Positions 7,974-44,092 of a DNA stretch of 56,567 bases are shown one piece after another (position 1 is the stretch's first letter; every line of letters starts with the position of its first letter). The notes beneath the pieces are model-generated. The model ran no database searches and had not been told where the DNA came from. It worked only from the letters and a program-made list of their open reading frames with translations. This DNA comes from an uncultured Fibrobacter sp. (lineage in GTDB: Bacteria > Fibrobacterota > Fibrobacteria > Fibrobacterales > Fibrobacteraceae): NCBI GenBank assembly GCA_947306305.1, contig CAMZGI010000003.1:1-56567 (forward strand), read 5' to 3'. The position numbers and the translations under genes were made by a program.

Positions 7974-8158
7974 TGCCTTCGGCATAGTTCTGAGTTTTGA
8001 GTTGCTAGTTACTGAGGTGCCTTCGGCACAGTTTAGAGTTTTAAGTTACTAGTTACTAGAGCTGCTTCGCGGCATCTTGCCTCTTAAGTATTCTAGTAAC
8101 TAATAACTAGTATCTAGTAACTATTAACTAGTATCTAGTAACTAACTTCTAGTAACTC
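7974..8158. repeat. Heptad (TNNNAAC) array with triloop hairpins, site A
   Basis: + strand right part: TAGTAAC TAATAAC TAGTATC TAGTAAC TATTAAC TAGTATC TAGTAAC; - strand left part: TAGTAAC TAGTAAC TTAAAAC TCTAAAC TG then hairpin GTGCCGAAGGCAC; hairpins at 7974-7984, 8017-8029 and 8061-8073. Confidence 0.85.
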
Positions 8159-11128: not shown

Positions 11129-12235
11129 ATGCGATGCAAGGTTCTTCGTTTTCCGCTTTTGTGCCTGTGCCTTAGCGCCTTTGTTTTGACGTTAGGCGTC
11201 GCACCGTCTTATGCTGCGAAGAGTATTCCTTCGTCGCAGGTTTCCCGCGATAAGCTCCTTAAAAAAATGCGGGACAAGGCTGACGACTTGCGGTCGTTCT
11301 GCTCGGGCATGTACAGGTGCCTTGACATGAAGTACGAGGCTTGTACCGAAGATGACATGAAGCCTTGGCCAAAGATTGATTACGACGCTGAATTTTGCGC
11401 TCCTTACAAGGAAATTGTCAAGCGCGGTTTTTCGACGAACGTGAACTCCCCGATGATGACGGACATCTTTTTGCGTCTTGGCCGCCAGTACAGGGCGATA
11501 TATTCTAGCGAAGGCACGCTCCCGCTCGAAGTGAACGAAATCAGCTACTTGTTTGACAACATGCCGTTTACCGCAGACCTTATCAATGCGTACTTGGATT
11601 CTAAATACGAACTCCAATATAATAGCACGGATCGCAGGTATTTCTCTGGAAACAACGGAGATGGGCTTTCGGGCGACTTCTTTTGGGCTTTGTCGGATAG
11701 CGCTGGAACCAAGTTGATGCTCCGCAATATGTTCTTTGGATATGGCTATGCTCAAATTTTGAAGTGGTCTTTAAAGGGGACGGCTATCGCGTATTTGGAC
11801 ATGGACTTGATTGCCCCGAGGACTCTTAAGTATAAATTAACTGCAATCGTGTTCCCGGGAAATTCCGTGTTGAATTCCATCATGCAGTTGCGTGTGTTCA
11901 AGAGCGTGGTGAATTCTAAAATCGACGATGTCGTGGGCGATGTGAAAAAAGCGGCTAACATGTATTATGGCGGAAATAGAAAACCTATTGCCAACAATCC
12001 AAAATTGCAGACTCCAGAAAATGCCCGCCATATAGCCGAGTTCGACAAAGTGGTCGCTGGCGCTCCTTGGAAACTTGGGGATGCAGCGCGTAAGGAAAGA
12101 GCTCTGCTAGAGCTTTCGAAGCCGCCTGCACGAATCAAGAGCAATGAACCTGTGGATCATAATATTAAACTTGATTCTACTGATGCAGTTGAACCTGAAG
12201 AACCTGCGAAAAGCATATCTATAAAAAAGGATTAA
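11129..12235 (+). CDS. Hypothetical exported protein
   Basis: Signal peptide-like N-terminus (LLCLCLSAFVLTLGVAPSYAAKS); no family recognised. Confidence 0.65.
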   Translation: MRCKVLRFPLLCLCLSAFVLTLGVAPSYAAKSIPSSQVSRDKLLKKMRDKADDLRSFCSGMYRCLDMKYEACTEDDMKPWPKIDYDAEFCAPYKEIVKRGFSTNVNSPMMTDIFLRLGRQYRAIYSSEGTLPLEVNEISYLFDNMPFTADLINAYLDSKYELQYNSTDRRYFSGNNGDGLSGDFFWALSDSAGTKLMLRNMFFGYGYAQILKWSLKGTAIAYLDMDLIAPRTLKYKLTAIVFPGNSVLNSIMQLRVFKSVVNSKIDDVVGDVKKAANMYYGGNRKPIANNPKLQTPENARHIAEFDKVVAGAPWKLGDAARKERALLELSKPPARIKSNEPVDHNIKLDSTDAVEPEEPAKSISIKKD

Positions 12236-12238
12236 AGA

Positions 12239-12895
12239 ATGAGTGAATCGAAGGATTTGGAATCGTTGCTTGCTCGTGTTACGGAACGCCGTCGTGAGCT
12301 GCTTACTTCTGTAGTCAATCGCCGCACGAGGCATTTTTGCATGGTGCTCGAAGACTTGTTCGATCCGCACAACATTTCGGCAGTGATTCGCACGGCTGAA
12401 GTTTTTGGCATCCAGGATGTGCACATCATCGAAGAAGACAATGCATACAGCGTGAACAAGTCTATTCTCAAGGGCTCTTACAAGTGGATGAGCCTTTATC
12501 TGTACAAGAAGCGCATGCTCTGCATGGAAAAGCTCCGCGAGAAGGGCTACAAGATTGCAGTTGCAAGCACGAACACCACGAACTCTGTGCTCGACCTTGA
12601 TTTGAGCCAGCCGATGGCGTTTTACTTGGGGAGCGAATTCCACGGGAACCATCCTGACACGCTTGCCCATGCCGATTACGAGTTCAAGTTGCCGCAGTAT
12701 GGCATTACCGAATCTATGAACGTCTCTGTTGCCGGTGGCGTGCTGATGACTTACCTCGACGTGTTCATGCAGAAGGAAGGACGCGAAAAGTTTGCTCTGC
12801 CGCAGGCTGAACGCGACGCGTTGTTGCTCGACTGGCTCGACCGCCATGTGAACGGGATTGAGACGAACAGCCCCATTGTGAGGGTAGGGGAGTAG
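12239..12895 (+). CDS. TrmH/SpoU-family RNA 2'-O-methyltransferase
   Basis: LEDLFDPHNISAVIRTAEVFGI, MAFYLGSEFHG and MNVSVAGGVLMTYL SPOUT motifs. Confidence 0.85.
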   Translation: MSESKDLESLLARVTERRRELLTSVVNRRTRHFCMVLEDLFDPHNISAVIRTAEVFGIQDVHIIEEDNAYSVNKSILKGSYKWMSLYLYKKRMLCMEKLREKGYKIAVASTNTTNSVLDLDLSQPMAFYLGSEFHGNHPDTLAHADYEFKLPQYGITESMNVSVAGGVLMTYLDVFMQKEGREKFALPQAERDALLLDWLDRHVNGIETNSPIVRVGE

Positions 12896-12899
12896 CTTA

Positions 12900-13154
12900 G
12901 TTACTAGATTCTAGTTACTAGTTACTAGAGATTCTTGATAAAAAAATCTAGTAACTAGTAACTTAAAACTCTAAACTGTGCCGAAGGCATCTCAGTAACT
13001 AGTAACTTAAAACTCGAAACTGTTGCGAAGCAACCTCGGTAATTAGTAACTCCAAACTCAGAACTGCGACGTAGTCGCCCTAGTAACTAGTAACTCAGAA
13101 CTTAAAACTGCCGCAAAGCGGCCCTAACTAGTAACTAGTAACTTGGAACTAAAG
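12900..13154. repeat. Heptad (TNNNAAC) array with triloop hairpins, site B (most complete)
   Basis: 17-bp perfect inverted repeat AGTTACTAGTTACTAGA (12913-12929) / TCTAGTAACTAGTAACT (12947-12963), then four heptad blocks ending in hairpins at 12979-12989, 13022-13034, 13066-13078 and 13110-13122. Confidence 0.9.
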
Positions 13155-13179
13155 CAAAATATGCTAGATTAGAATTGAA

Positions 13180-14100
13180 ATGAAAAAGAATACTGCTCTA
13201 TATTTTTCTGTAGGACTTGTCGTTCTTTTAGCCATTGTCATTTTGATATTTGGCATGTTCTTTCTGAACGAGAAGGATCTGCGTGAAACATTCGACGTGT
13301 ATCATTTGCGGTTCACGCAAGTGAGTACGCTTGTCTTGGACGACCCGGTCAAAATCAATGGCGTGAAGCTTGGCCGCGTGGAGTCCATTGAGCTTTCTGG
13401 TCATCGCGTTGTCGTCACGATCAGGCTCAAGTCCAATGTGAAAATCCCGAAGGATTCCGAAATTCGCGTGCAGAATATCGGAATCATGGGCGAACGCCAG
13501 ATTGGCATGATTCTCGGCGACTCCGAAGAATACTTTGTGCCGGGCGACACCATTACGGGCCAGTTTGACGCGGGCATTGCCGAAGCTCTTGGGCTTGCAG
13601 GCGAAGTTTGCGACTCGACGAAGGTTTTGCTTGAGGCGGTGAAGGTCGCTTTGAACGGGACTATTGCAAACCCAGAATTCCAGGATCGTTTCAGGACGCT
13701 TTTGATTAAGGCCGAAGGTCTTGAAGACCGCTTGACGTCGTTGGTGACGACGACAGACCCGCAGCTCAAGAAGAGCCTTGCGAATTTGAATAAGGTGACG
13801 GTCAAGGTGAACGAACTGGTTGATGGGGTCAAGGGACCGATTGACGGTTTGTTTGCGGGGACGGACAAGGTCATGGGGAACGCGAACCAGCTTATCTCTG
13901 AGCTGGAAGACGTGACCAAGCATTTGGATGGGCTGATAGCCAAGGTAGAGGGCAAGATCGAATCGAAAGACAATACGGTTGGTATCTTGCTTAACGATAG
14001 ACAGCTGCATGACGATTTAGTGAAGACAGTTCGTTCTGCCGACAGCCTGTTCAAGATCATCCTGCAAGATGGCCTTGATATTAATGTGGATTTTTTCTGA
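13180..14100 (+). CDS. MCE/MlaD family protein
   Basis: Single N-terminal TM then FTQVSTLVLDDPVKINGVKLGRVESIEL...IRVQNIGIMGERQI (MCE domain). Confidence 0.85.
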   Translation: MKKNTALYFSVGLVVLLAIVILIFGMFFLNEKDLRETFDVYHLRFTQVSTLVLDDPVKINGVKLGRVESIELSGHRVVVTIRLKSNVKIPKDSEIRVQNIGIMGERQIGMILGDSEEYFVPGDTITGQFDAGIAEALGLAGEVCDSTKVLLEAVKVALNGTIANPEFQDRFRTLLIKAEGLEDRLTSLVTTTDPQLKKSLANLNKVTVKVNELVDGVKGPIDGLFAGTDKVMGNANQLISELEDVTKHLDGLIAKVEGKIESKDNTVGILLNDRQLHDDLVKTVRSADSLFKIILQDGLDINVDFF

Positions 14101-16210: not shown

Positions 16211-18493
16211 ATGAAGTTTTTTTATTCGTTGTTGCTTGCTTGTGTTGCCGTCTCGTATGCGCAGATGGACGGCTCGGTGTATTCCCTTTCTAAGTCCCCG
16301 TTTGTGGAACAGGAATCGGTGGCGCCAGAGCAGTTCCAGGATGTCGTTGTCCGTGCGGCCCGTGCAAAGAAAACGATGAATGATATTTCGGTTTCGCAGA
16401 ACCACCGCGATTTTGCCCGTGCTGCCTATTTTTATTACAGTGGCCAATGGGATAGCGCTTATACGGCGTACAATTCGCTTCGCAACCGTGAATCAGGCTT
16501 GACGGGGAATGTTATTCTCCGCATGGCTCGTGCCAATTTTAAGCAAGAAAAATATGCCAAGATGCGCGAAACGCTCCGTTTGGAAAAAAGCTTGGAATCG
16601 GACGAAATTTGGCGCGAAGTTGCTGACCGTTTAAGAATTGAAGCGACGATGGCGGACAATTCGATCAATGACGTGTCGCGCGCGGAATCGTTGATGGTGT
16701 TTTTGGACCGTTACCCCGATAACGACGATGTGGTCGCCTTGAGGTATCGCTACGCCCGCTATTTGGAAGATTCCTACCGCTTGAAGCAGGCGAAAAGGCT
16801 TTACATGAAGCTTTTGACTAGCCGCACGGCTTATAAGGATTCAGCTTTCCAGTCGATTCGCCGTTTGCGCGAAGTGCTCGGCGCCCCCGAAACGCTTGCG
16901 GAAAAAGTCGCTTATGCAAAGATGGCTTGCACCAAGGACGAGATGAAAAACTGTCTGGACTTGCTGGATTCTATCCAGATTATGGATGCCCAGATGGCGC
17001 AGAAAAATCCGTCTCTGGTGGTGCCGCCGTCTGACGACCCGTTGCAGGCACGTTTGAAAAAGAGCACGCTCGATTTGAGTACCCGCATTGCGCTGTGGGA
17101 AAAACGTGCTGGCGCATTGCGTGCTTTGAACCGTAATGCGGAAGCTATTGAGCAATACCGCTACTTGATTGAAAATGTAGAGACTCGTCCGTCTTGGATT
17201 AATGCGATTCTGAAGCTTTACCGCAAAGAAGCCGCTGGGGTCTTTGACGAAGAAATCCATACTTACGATTCGCTTTTGCAGGACGTGAGCCAATACAGCA
17301 ACGAAAATGCAAACAACCTTTGGCTGCGCGGTTTTGAGTTTGAACAAAAGCTGATGTACGACAAGGCTGTCGAATGCTACATGAAGCTTGTCCATAAACG
17401 TTTTAAGAACAATTTGAAGCGTCAGTGGGCGAGATTCCGCATCGGTTACATCTACTTTAAGCGTGGCATGTGGGTTGAAGCCGCCGCGAACTTCCGCGAA
17501 GCGAAGAAAGATCCGTTCTTGTGGAGCGGCAGCGCCGCGAGAATGTTCTTGGGCGACACATACAGAAAAATGGGCGAGGATTCCTTGGCCCGCGAAGCGT
17601 ATCTGGATTGCATCAGGGATTTCCCGCTTTCGTATTACGCGCACCGCAGCCGCACGAAGCTTTTGGAACACCGCTTGTTGCCGATGCGTAAAATCCCGTA
17701 TGCGCATGGGGTGGCGATGTCGCCTGCGGCGACTCTCGAATGGATTCGCACGACGAACAAGCTTGGAAAGCCCGATGCCTCGTATAGCAAAGAACGCTAT
17801 GAACGCATCAAGAAGCTGTTCCTCTACGGTTTTGAAGAAGAAGCCTTTAGGCTTTATGACGAAATCAAGAAGAAAAACGCGAAGCGTTTGGATTTCCTTT
17901 ACGAATACGGAAAGCTCTTTTACGATATGGGCGAAACTGCTGCCGGTTACAGGCTTGCTCGCCAATTTCAGGCGAAGATTGATAGACGCTTGTTGATGTC
18001 TCCGCCGATAGACGTGCTGCATTACCTTTTCCCGGTGCCGTATGCCGACCCGGTGGTTTACTATTCGGGGAACAACATCGATCCGTTCTTTGTGTATAGC
18101 GTGATGCGTCAGGAATCAATCTTTGATTTTCAGATTACTTCCCCTGCGGGCGCTTGCGGCTTGTTGCAGATTATGCCGGCCACGGGCAAGATGCTTGCCG
18201 AAAAGGAAGAAATTTCGAACTTTGTGCCGAAGCGTTTGTACAATGCGTACATGAATATCCGCTTGGGAATACGTTATTTGACAGACCTCAAGGACGAATA
18301 CAATGACGATTACATGTATGTCCTTGGCAATTACAATGCAGGTCCGAAGCCCACAAAGCGCTGGCAATCCGAGAGCGAAGGGCTTCCATGGGATTTGCGT
18401 GTCGAAGAAATCAGCTACTGGGAAACTCGTGAATACGTGAAGCGCGTCATGGGCAATTACTGGATTTATAAAGAAATATATGACGGGATTTAG
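16211..18493 (+). CDS. TPR-containing soluble lytic transglycosylase (SLT domain)
   Basis: VMRQESIFDFQITSPAGACGLLQIMPATGK and NYNAGP motifs; helical repeat region. Confidence 0.9.
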   Translation: MKFFYSLLLACVAVSYAQMDGSVYSLSKSPFVEQESVAPEQFQDVVVRAARAKKTMNDISVSQNHRDFARAAYFYYSGQWDSAYTAYNSLRNRESGLTGNVILRMARANFKQEKYAKMRETLRLEKSLESDEIWREVADRLRIEATMADNSINDVSRAESLMVFLDRYPDNDDVVALRYRYARYLEDSYRLKQAKRLYMKLLTSRTAYKDSAFQSIRRLREVLGAPETLAEKVAYAKMACTKDEMKNCLDLLDSIQIMDAQMAQKNPSLVVPPSDDPLQARLKKSTLDLSTRIALWEKRAGALRALNRNAEAIEQYRYLIENVETRPSWINAILKLYRKEAAGVFDEEIHTYDSLLQDVSQYSNENANNLWLRGFEFEQKLMYDKAVECYMKLVHKRFKNNLKRQWARFRIGYIYFKRGMWVEAAANFREAKKDPFLWSGSAARMFLGDTYRKMGEDSLAREAYLDCIRDFPLSYYAHRSRTKLLEHRLLPMRKIPYAHGVAMSPAATLEWIRTTNKLGKPDASYSKERYERIKKLFLYGFEEEAFRLYDEIKKKNAKRLDFLYEYGKLFYDMGETAAGYRLARQFQAKIDRRLLMSPPIDVLHYLFPVPYADPVVYYSGNNIDPFFVYSVMRQESIFDFQITSPAGACGLLQIMPATGKMLAEKEEISNFVPKRLYNAYMNIRLGIRYLTDLKDEYNDDYMYVLGNYNAGPKPTKRWQSESEGLPWDLRVEEISYWETREYVKRVMGNYWIYKEIYDGI

Positions 18494-18494
18494 C

Positions 18495-18530
18495 GCTTAG
18501 AACTTAGAGCTTAGATCTTAGAACTTAGAA
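18495..18530. repeat. TTAGAAC-type heptad array left of the S23/IVP gene
   Basis: TTAGAAC TTAGAGC TTAGATC TTAGAAC TTAGAAG; exact 7-nt period. Confidence 0.8.
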
Positions 18531-43972: not shown

Positions 43973-44092
43973 GCACCTTTGGTGCAGTTACTAGAACTTA
44001 GTTTCTAGTTAATAGTTAGTAGTTACTAGAAGAATCTTGAAGAAAAAGTCTAGTAACTAGTAACTTCGAACTCAAAACTGCTGCGAAGCAGC
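43973..44092. repeat. Heptad (TNNNAAC) array with terminal hairpins, site C (two-armed)
   Basis: GCACC-ttt-GGTGC hairpin (43973-43985), inverted heptads, centre agaatcttgaagaaaaag, TAGTAAC TAGTAAC TTCGAAC TCAAAAC TG, hairpin GCTGC-gaa-GCAGC (44080-44092). Confidence 0.9.

Follow-up and report, generated by a model that had tools for sequence, protein, structure and literature searches.

Heptanucleotide repeats are an old observation in unrelated bacteria that has come with no mechanism, and the gap between a SpoU-type methylase gene (12239–12895) and an MlaD-type gene (13180–14100) of an uncultured Fibrobacter sp. raises the question of what such an array is and how it comes about. The window analysed here is the whole stretch of 56,567 nucleotides at positions 1 to 56,567 of contig CAMZGI010000003.1; the assembly of this genome (GCA_947306305.1) is referred to as G000, other G-numbers denote compared genomes and L-numbers compared loci. 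A first-pass annotation, made from the letters alone, had placed an array at 12900–13154. The array (site B) is genuine, and the whole element occupies about 12896–13154 of the plus strand. The heptads, the hairpins and a perfect 17-bp inverted repeat with a 17-nt spacer were confirmed to the base. The left arm of this repeat (12913–12929) carries AG-strand heptads, AGTTACTAGTTACTAGA, and is followed by an AT-rich core, which is the 17-nt spacer GATTCTTGATAAAAAAA (12930–12946) and resembles the core of other copies of the same type, here termed family I. The first-pass annotation had put the inverted repeat upstream; it runs into the beginning of the array, and its right arm (12947–12963) is therefore also the first two forward heptads.

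Four 44-bp units with a spacing of 44/44/44 fill positions 12950–13125, each composed of four heptads (AACT + NNN), a 13-nt hairpin (5-bp stem, 3-nt loop) and a 3-nt linker. All lie on the plus strand: unit 1 at 12950–12993 (hairpin 12978–12990, GTGCC GAA GGCAT, with a G-T outer pair), unit 2 at 12994–13037 (13022–13034, GTTGC GAA GCAAC), unit 3 at 13038–13081 (13066–13078, GCGAC GTA GTCGC) and unit 4 at 13082–13125 (13110–13122, GCCGC AAA GCGGC). Closing heptads without a hairpin (13126–13152, plus strand) end about 28 bp upstream of the next start codon. The hairpins had previously been parsed as 'TG' plus a hairpin; all four are real, but the stem is 5 bp long and includes the G of 'TG'. 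The array is not CRISPR, as had been stated, since there are no spacers and the units are adjoining variants of each other. As RNA, site B folds with z = -5.20 relative to shuffles, and no known structured RNA of Rfam 15 matched in the window at the gathering score. An intrinsic terminator consists of a G/C hairpin followed directly by a T run. Two terminator-like matches were found at site B on the minus strand (0.4 expected) and none on the plus strand, the pattern being a hairpin and then AGTT heptads. In most of the genus genomes shown, the segment AAAATATGCTAGATT (13156–13172) just upstream of the MlaD-type gene is kept and all that precedes it is replaced, and for this reason we read the segment as probably a promoter -10 region.

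Besides site B the window holds three further arrays. Site A (7982–8157; hairpin 8017–8029 on the minus strand) likewise belongs to family I and lies between divergent genes, and in its orthologous gaps two relatives hold a different heptad family. Site C (43973–44092), a compact family I element between convergent genes, has the order hairpin, left arm, core, right arm, hairpin. Site D (18490–18530) is an array of AACTTAG-type heptads, family II. The 14-mer TAGTAACTAGTAAC occurs 88 times in G000, where the reversed control gives 0, and is present in 42 of 80 genus genomes; in a search that covered the phylum, the other sampled genera gave 0. The period is strictly 7. Runs of at least three AACT heptads number 41 in 406 kb of G000 against 0 in a second-order Markov simulation, and lag-7 repeats cover 2509 intergenic bp of G000, other lags from 4 to 13 covering 0–153 bp each. 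In the samples used for statistics (406 kb of G000, 1.19 Mb of G130 and 400 kb of G105), lag 7 accounts for 2509 bp of 29.3 kb, 5723 bp of 96.7 kb and 767 bp of 26.8 kb of intergenic DNA, respectively, and any other lag from 4 to 12 for 437 bp or less. The autocorrelation of intergenic DNA has peaks at lags 7, 14, 21 and 28 in these three genomes, weaker in G105 than in G000 and G130; in smaller samples, the peaks were absent from the outgroup G144 and from G062, which belongs to the genus but lacks the 14-mer. Neither outcome named in the first-pass annotation as refuting a repeat family, a single locus or a lack of period-7 enrichment, was observed, and the family stands.

The arrays are restricted to gaps: with genes called as longest ORF only, 17 were counted in 1.62 Mb of coding DNA, whereas in 153 kb of intergenic DNA arrays take up about 10 kb. 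Heptad elements make up a sizeable share of what fills the gaps in this fibre-degrading lineage. In the three-genome sample the proportion of gaps with an array is 18.5% where the flanking genes are tandem, 25% where they are convergent and 18% where they are divergent. Arms are as frequent at 5' as at 3' gene edges. Stops inside arrays push called starts past them and so bias distances to start codons. G000 comprises 388 contigs at 70% completeness. Many of its 14-mer copies are no more than about 100 bp from a contig end (for example C15:97, C29:16, C55:69, C179:3 and C331:25), from which we conclude that the repeats probably break the assembly and that copy number is underestimated. The same assembly has 74 matches to Fib_succ_major (PF09603), which agrees with its placement in Fibrobacter.

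The TNNNAAC heptad with its TG-hairpin, taken earlier as the family, is only one of several heptad families, all of which have one architecture, namely inverted arms around a core. Other heptad types are GACCAAT/GACTAAT, ACCTANN, CACTANN, CCTACTN, AACTTAG and GACGAGA, a simple rule having been used to sort heptads into families. In family I the core is AT-rich and about 20 nt long; most of the other families have at many loci a common palindromic core around GCGGC-NNN-GCCGCGATTATA. Copy numbers of families I and V are 88/2 in G000, 34/1 in G064, 9/161 in G132 and 0/67 in G077. Among the 80 genus genomes family V occurs in 30 of 42 family I carriers versus 2 of 38 non-carriers, a co-occurrence consistent with common descent or with a permissive background that the carriers share. 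At G130 L112:18238–18437, at L225 (Chitinophagales) and near position 12015 of G000 C25, heptad arms have REP-like inverted repeats (GTCATCCTGA...TCAGGATGAC) next to them or in their midst, as though these had entered the core.

Read on one strand, the heptads share the consensus (T)AG + NNNN, with T at 71%, A at 84% and G at 88%, followed by T (63%), T (54%), A (51%) and T (45%). Only AG(T) is conserved, and 332 distinct heptads occur among 863; the AG strand contains 36% T and 9% C. Lag-7 identity by phase is 0.66, 0.79, 0.86, 0.73, 0.60, 0.50 and 0.46, meaning that neighbouring heptads agree at 0.79 (A) and 0.86 (G) and at only 0.46–0.60 over the last three positions, the AG figures being somewhat inflated by a frame picked to contain AG or GG. 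The polarity of the arms is fixed. Where two opposed arms share a gap, the AG strand is on the left in 46 cases ('<>') versus 1 ('><'), and with respect to the nearest gene AG-out outnumbers AG-in by 187:34 in three genomes and by 86:17 for single arms alone (P = 3e-12).

The hairpins covary. At AACTG ends, which were not selected for pairing, 35 of 46 have a perfect 5-bp stem; at the ends of array runs 36 of 175 do (0.9 expected), nearly all in exact register. In a set of 23 sequences already chosen as hairpins, the stem covariation score is 0.591 versus 0.175 ± 0.035 in shuffles and at most 0.141 in all slid versions, with 23 double-changed cells compared with 6.4 after shuffling, and the stem sequence is free to vary. 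Whole elements fold on both strands with mean z of -3.7 and -3.9, against -1.4 for other gaps. When arms were swapped, an element's own arms paired no better than arms from other elements (P = 0.60 and 0.10), and a selected long hairpin with co-evolving arms was rejected on this ground.

The gene pair around site B is present throughout the genus, and the content of its gap turns over rapidly. It is a short terminator-like sequence in G130, G105 and G106, a family I element in G064 and G134, the latter having one exact extra 44-bp unit, and an AACTTAG array at the same place in G067, G126, G112 and G128; G125 has an apparent degraded remnant. The element of G134 is, together with its right flank, near-exact in G064 (L032; 87%). 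The next gene is 95% alike in G134 (L033) and G126 (L046), and yet their element families differ. Judged from these alignments, the gap appears to have been exchanged between species by short tracts. In the main ortholog comparison, which is small (48 gaps), the presence of arrays in a gap of G000 goes strongly with their presence in the matching gap of G130 (31/2/6/9; odds ratio 23, P = 1e-4). The association persists among pairs of gaps that both measure 80 bp or more (P = 7e-5), and one is likewise seen for G105 and G130 (P = 0.01). The dominant heptad family differs in 5 of the 9 gaps occupied in both G000 and G130. Differences at orthologous sites comprise replacement of an arm or core, substitutions at variable positions, a new element within an older one, and presence or absence; in one case a single 7-bp heptad is missing in G130 relative to G105. 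The first-pass annotation had proposed comparing orthologous gaps for clean insertion or excision boundaries. No clean boundary of a single event was found: filled sites differ from empty ones by replacements of about 15–60 bp, and no target-site duplication was detected by eye at the compared sites. In these respects the elements do not match a DNA transposon or MITE. A 335-bp gap at G130 L110:16149–16484 lacks heptads and has several TTTTACGTGAA / TTCACGTAAAA motifs in inverted arrangement, a further repeat type; in G105 a family III array takes its place.

We give about an even chance to the view that the arrays are dispersing composite non-coding elements, which grow by 7-nt slippage, exchange arms and cores, and are tolerated only in gaps. 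From the species comparisons, arms would lengthen and shorten by strand slippage in 7-nt steps, and whole 44-bp units would arise by tandem duplication. Arms and cores may spread among loci by copying or recombination, with the heptads serving as microhomology and existing arrays as preferred targets. The AG or AGT phase would be retained because the spreading process or a binding factor requires it, and insertions would persist only in gaps because the arrays bear stops and strong structure. Transcribed arrays would fold into long hairpins beside genes, which makes an effect on RNA 3' ends plausible but secondary. Dispersal has weak points of its own: no mobilising enzyme was found, target-site duplications are missing, ortholog numbers are small, and pairs of different families at the same site would also fit functional replacement or allele exchange between species.

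Ordinary replication slippage of a 7-nt unit, with neither dispersal nor function, would explain the exact period, the single-heptad indels and the exact 44-bp duplication, and a preference for heptads has been published for bacterial simple repeats (Mrazek 2007, as cited in PMC4679880 and PMC4692102). We consider it improbable as the whole explanation: the AG phases are conserved (0.79–0.86) and others are not (0.46), so that plain slippage is insufficient, and it accounts neither for the diversity of heptads nor for the 46:1 polarity, for non-heptad hairpins that covary in exact register, or for non-repeat cores common to many loci. Another reading gives the arrays a role in gene expression. 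Selection would have kept them as RNA 3'-end elements that work in both directions: a transcript coming out of a gene would run into a G/C hairpin followed by a heptad tract rich in T and poor in C, which would terminate transcription or protect the end, and families would be interchangeable because only structure matters. Folding better than shuffles on both strands argues for it, including the fold of site B, as does the lasting occupancy of the same gap despite family switching. An early test found intrinsic terminators at 21% of array 3' ends versus 39% (P = 9e-4); with more data the difference was confined to tandem genes, where 3' ends with arrays have terminators in 17% versus 40% of cases (P = 2e-4), and at locus B a terminator-like site is found in 0 of 5 detected array carriers compared with 8 of 22 others. 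In convergent gaps, where the effect should matter most, a terminator on either strand is equally frequent with and without arrays (54% vs 55%). Replacement of terminators in general was dropped for this reason, and the transcript insulation that had been considered earlier is not clearly supported. Arrays are also not clearly enriched downstream of genes, and swapped arms pair equally well. A bidirectional role at RNA 3' ends is possible from these sequence patterns, but as an account of the elements as a whole we regard it as unlikely.

Two further explanations fare much worse. If the arrays were REP/BIME-like and their hairpins were the recognition site of a Y1 (RAYT-type) transposase that moves them, dispersed intergenic hairpins in high copy number and mosaic arrangement would likewise be expected. 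Y1_Tnp is present in only 27 of 80 genus genomes, however, and is absent from copy-rich G000 (70% complete), G114 (88%, 99 copies) and G134 (93%, 53 copies); since in addition the stem sequence is unconstrained, this mobilisation was rejected and we hold it to be most improbable. Six-frame stop-codon cassettes at gene ends were suggested by the earlier remark that three heptads put stops in all forward frames. This is directly visible, and in G130 an array of another heptad family precedes the old stop codon and supplies an in-frame TAG. Against a cassette role, it is AG that is conserved and not the preceding T of TAG, the GACGAGA family carries no stops, and 5' edges are hit as often as 3' edges. 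Stop cassettes were rejected on these grounds and have very little probability left.

Elements that are structured and polar, whose hairpins covary, whose AG phase is conserved and whose families switch rapidly in the same gaps of close relatives provide a concrete system for asking whether 7-nt periodicity reflects slippage alone or betrays an enzyme or a binding factor. Their nearest analogue had been sought among the heptanucleotide repeats of cyanobacteria, and this comparison is upheld. As tandem direct 7-nt repeats that are mainly intergenic, the Fibrobacter arrays fall among the heptanucleotide (STRR/TAACTGA) repeats. TAACTGA direct repeats are described from Beggiatoaceae, cyanobacteria and some Bacteroidetes, Fibrobacter not being among the reported hosts (MacGregor 2015, PMC4679880). 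They, too, are 7-nt, intergenic, mixed with related heptamers and patchily distributed; read on the other strand the motif is CAGTTAT, which fits AGTYANN. Of the sets in BOGUAY, 147 are directed at a start codon and 12 at a stop (PMC4679880), so that at 5' edges the polarity is AG-out as in Fibrobacter. By contrast, inverted arms are nearly absent from TAACTGA repeats, BOGUAY having a single inverted repeat, and hairpin cassettes or cores are undescribed. Their heptad is near-invariant in BOGUAY, though not in all published types. That of Fibrobacter is not, and we therefore file the arrays as a variant of heptanucleotide repeats and not as a TAACTGA repeat.

The heptanucleotide repeats of cyanobacteria (STRR; GGGGA(C/T)T of Nostoc, PMC4692102) share with the Fibrobacter arrays their many dispersed intergenic loci but have few reported inverted pairs and no hairpin modules. 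The same source describes Xanthomonas heptad arrays that differ between related species and ties a G-rich heptad type to G-quadruplexes. In P6b of the Nostoc tRNA-Leu(UAA) group I intron, degenerate heptads flank a hairpin and change in copy number, non-heptad inserts form side stem-loops, and two repeat classes do not follow phylogeny (PMC3488679, PMC4476775). Degenerate heptads forming two stem arms with side hairpins are found in Fibrobacter as well (arms 46:1, fold z near -3.7), which is a resemblance only: the P6b repeats, with the motifs TDNGATT and NNTGAGT, occupy a single intron site, and the Fibrobacter copies are dispersed in gaps between protein genes at many loci and do not lie in that loop. 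REP/BIME sequences are dispersed intergenic palindromes in mosaic arrays, but differ in that copy-rich Fibrobacter genomes lack the Y1 transposase, the stem sequence is variable and the arms are built of 7-nt units. The composite architecture is undescribed in the available parts of PMC4679880, PMC4692102, PMC4476775 and PMC3488679, and no description of Fibrobacter heptad repeats was found in the open-access literature. As far as we could find, then, the elements are a variant of bacterial heptanucleotide repeats with an apparently undescribed architecture.

It is tempting to speculate, if with considerable doubt, that the degenerate NAGTYAN heptad, the inverted arms and the fixed gene polarity represent one system that extends across Fibrobacterota, Cyanobacteria, Bacteroidota and other phyla. 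Its arms would be copied or recognised by a putative factor reading AG at 7-nt intervals, and the scattered heptad repeats already published would be traces it has left. In a scan of about 85,000 species with (AGTYANN)5, many cyanobacteria, Bacteroidota and members of other phyla were among the matches listed. Within these listed matches, arm polarity has the same direction as in Fibrobacter (15 vs 2), as has gene facing (101 vs 36).
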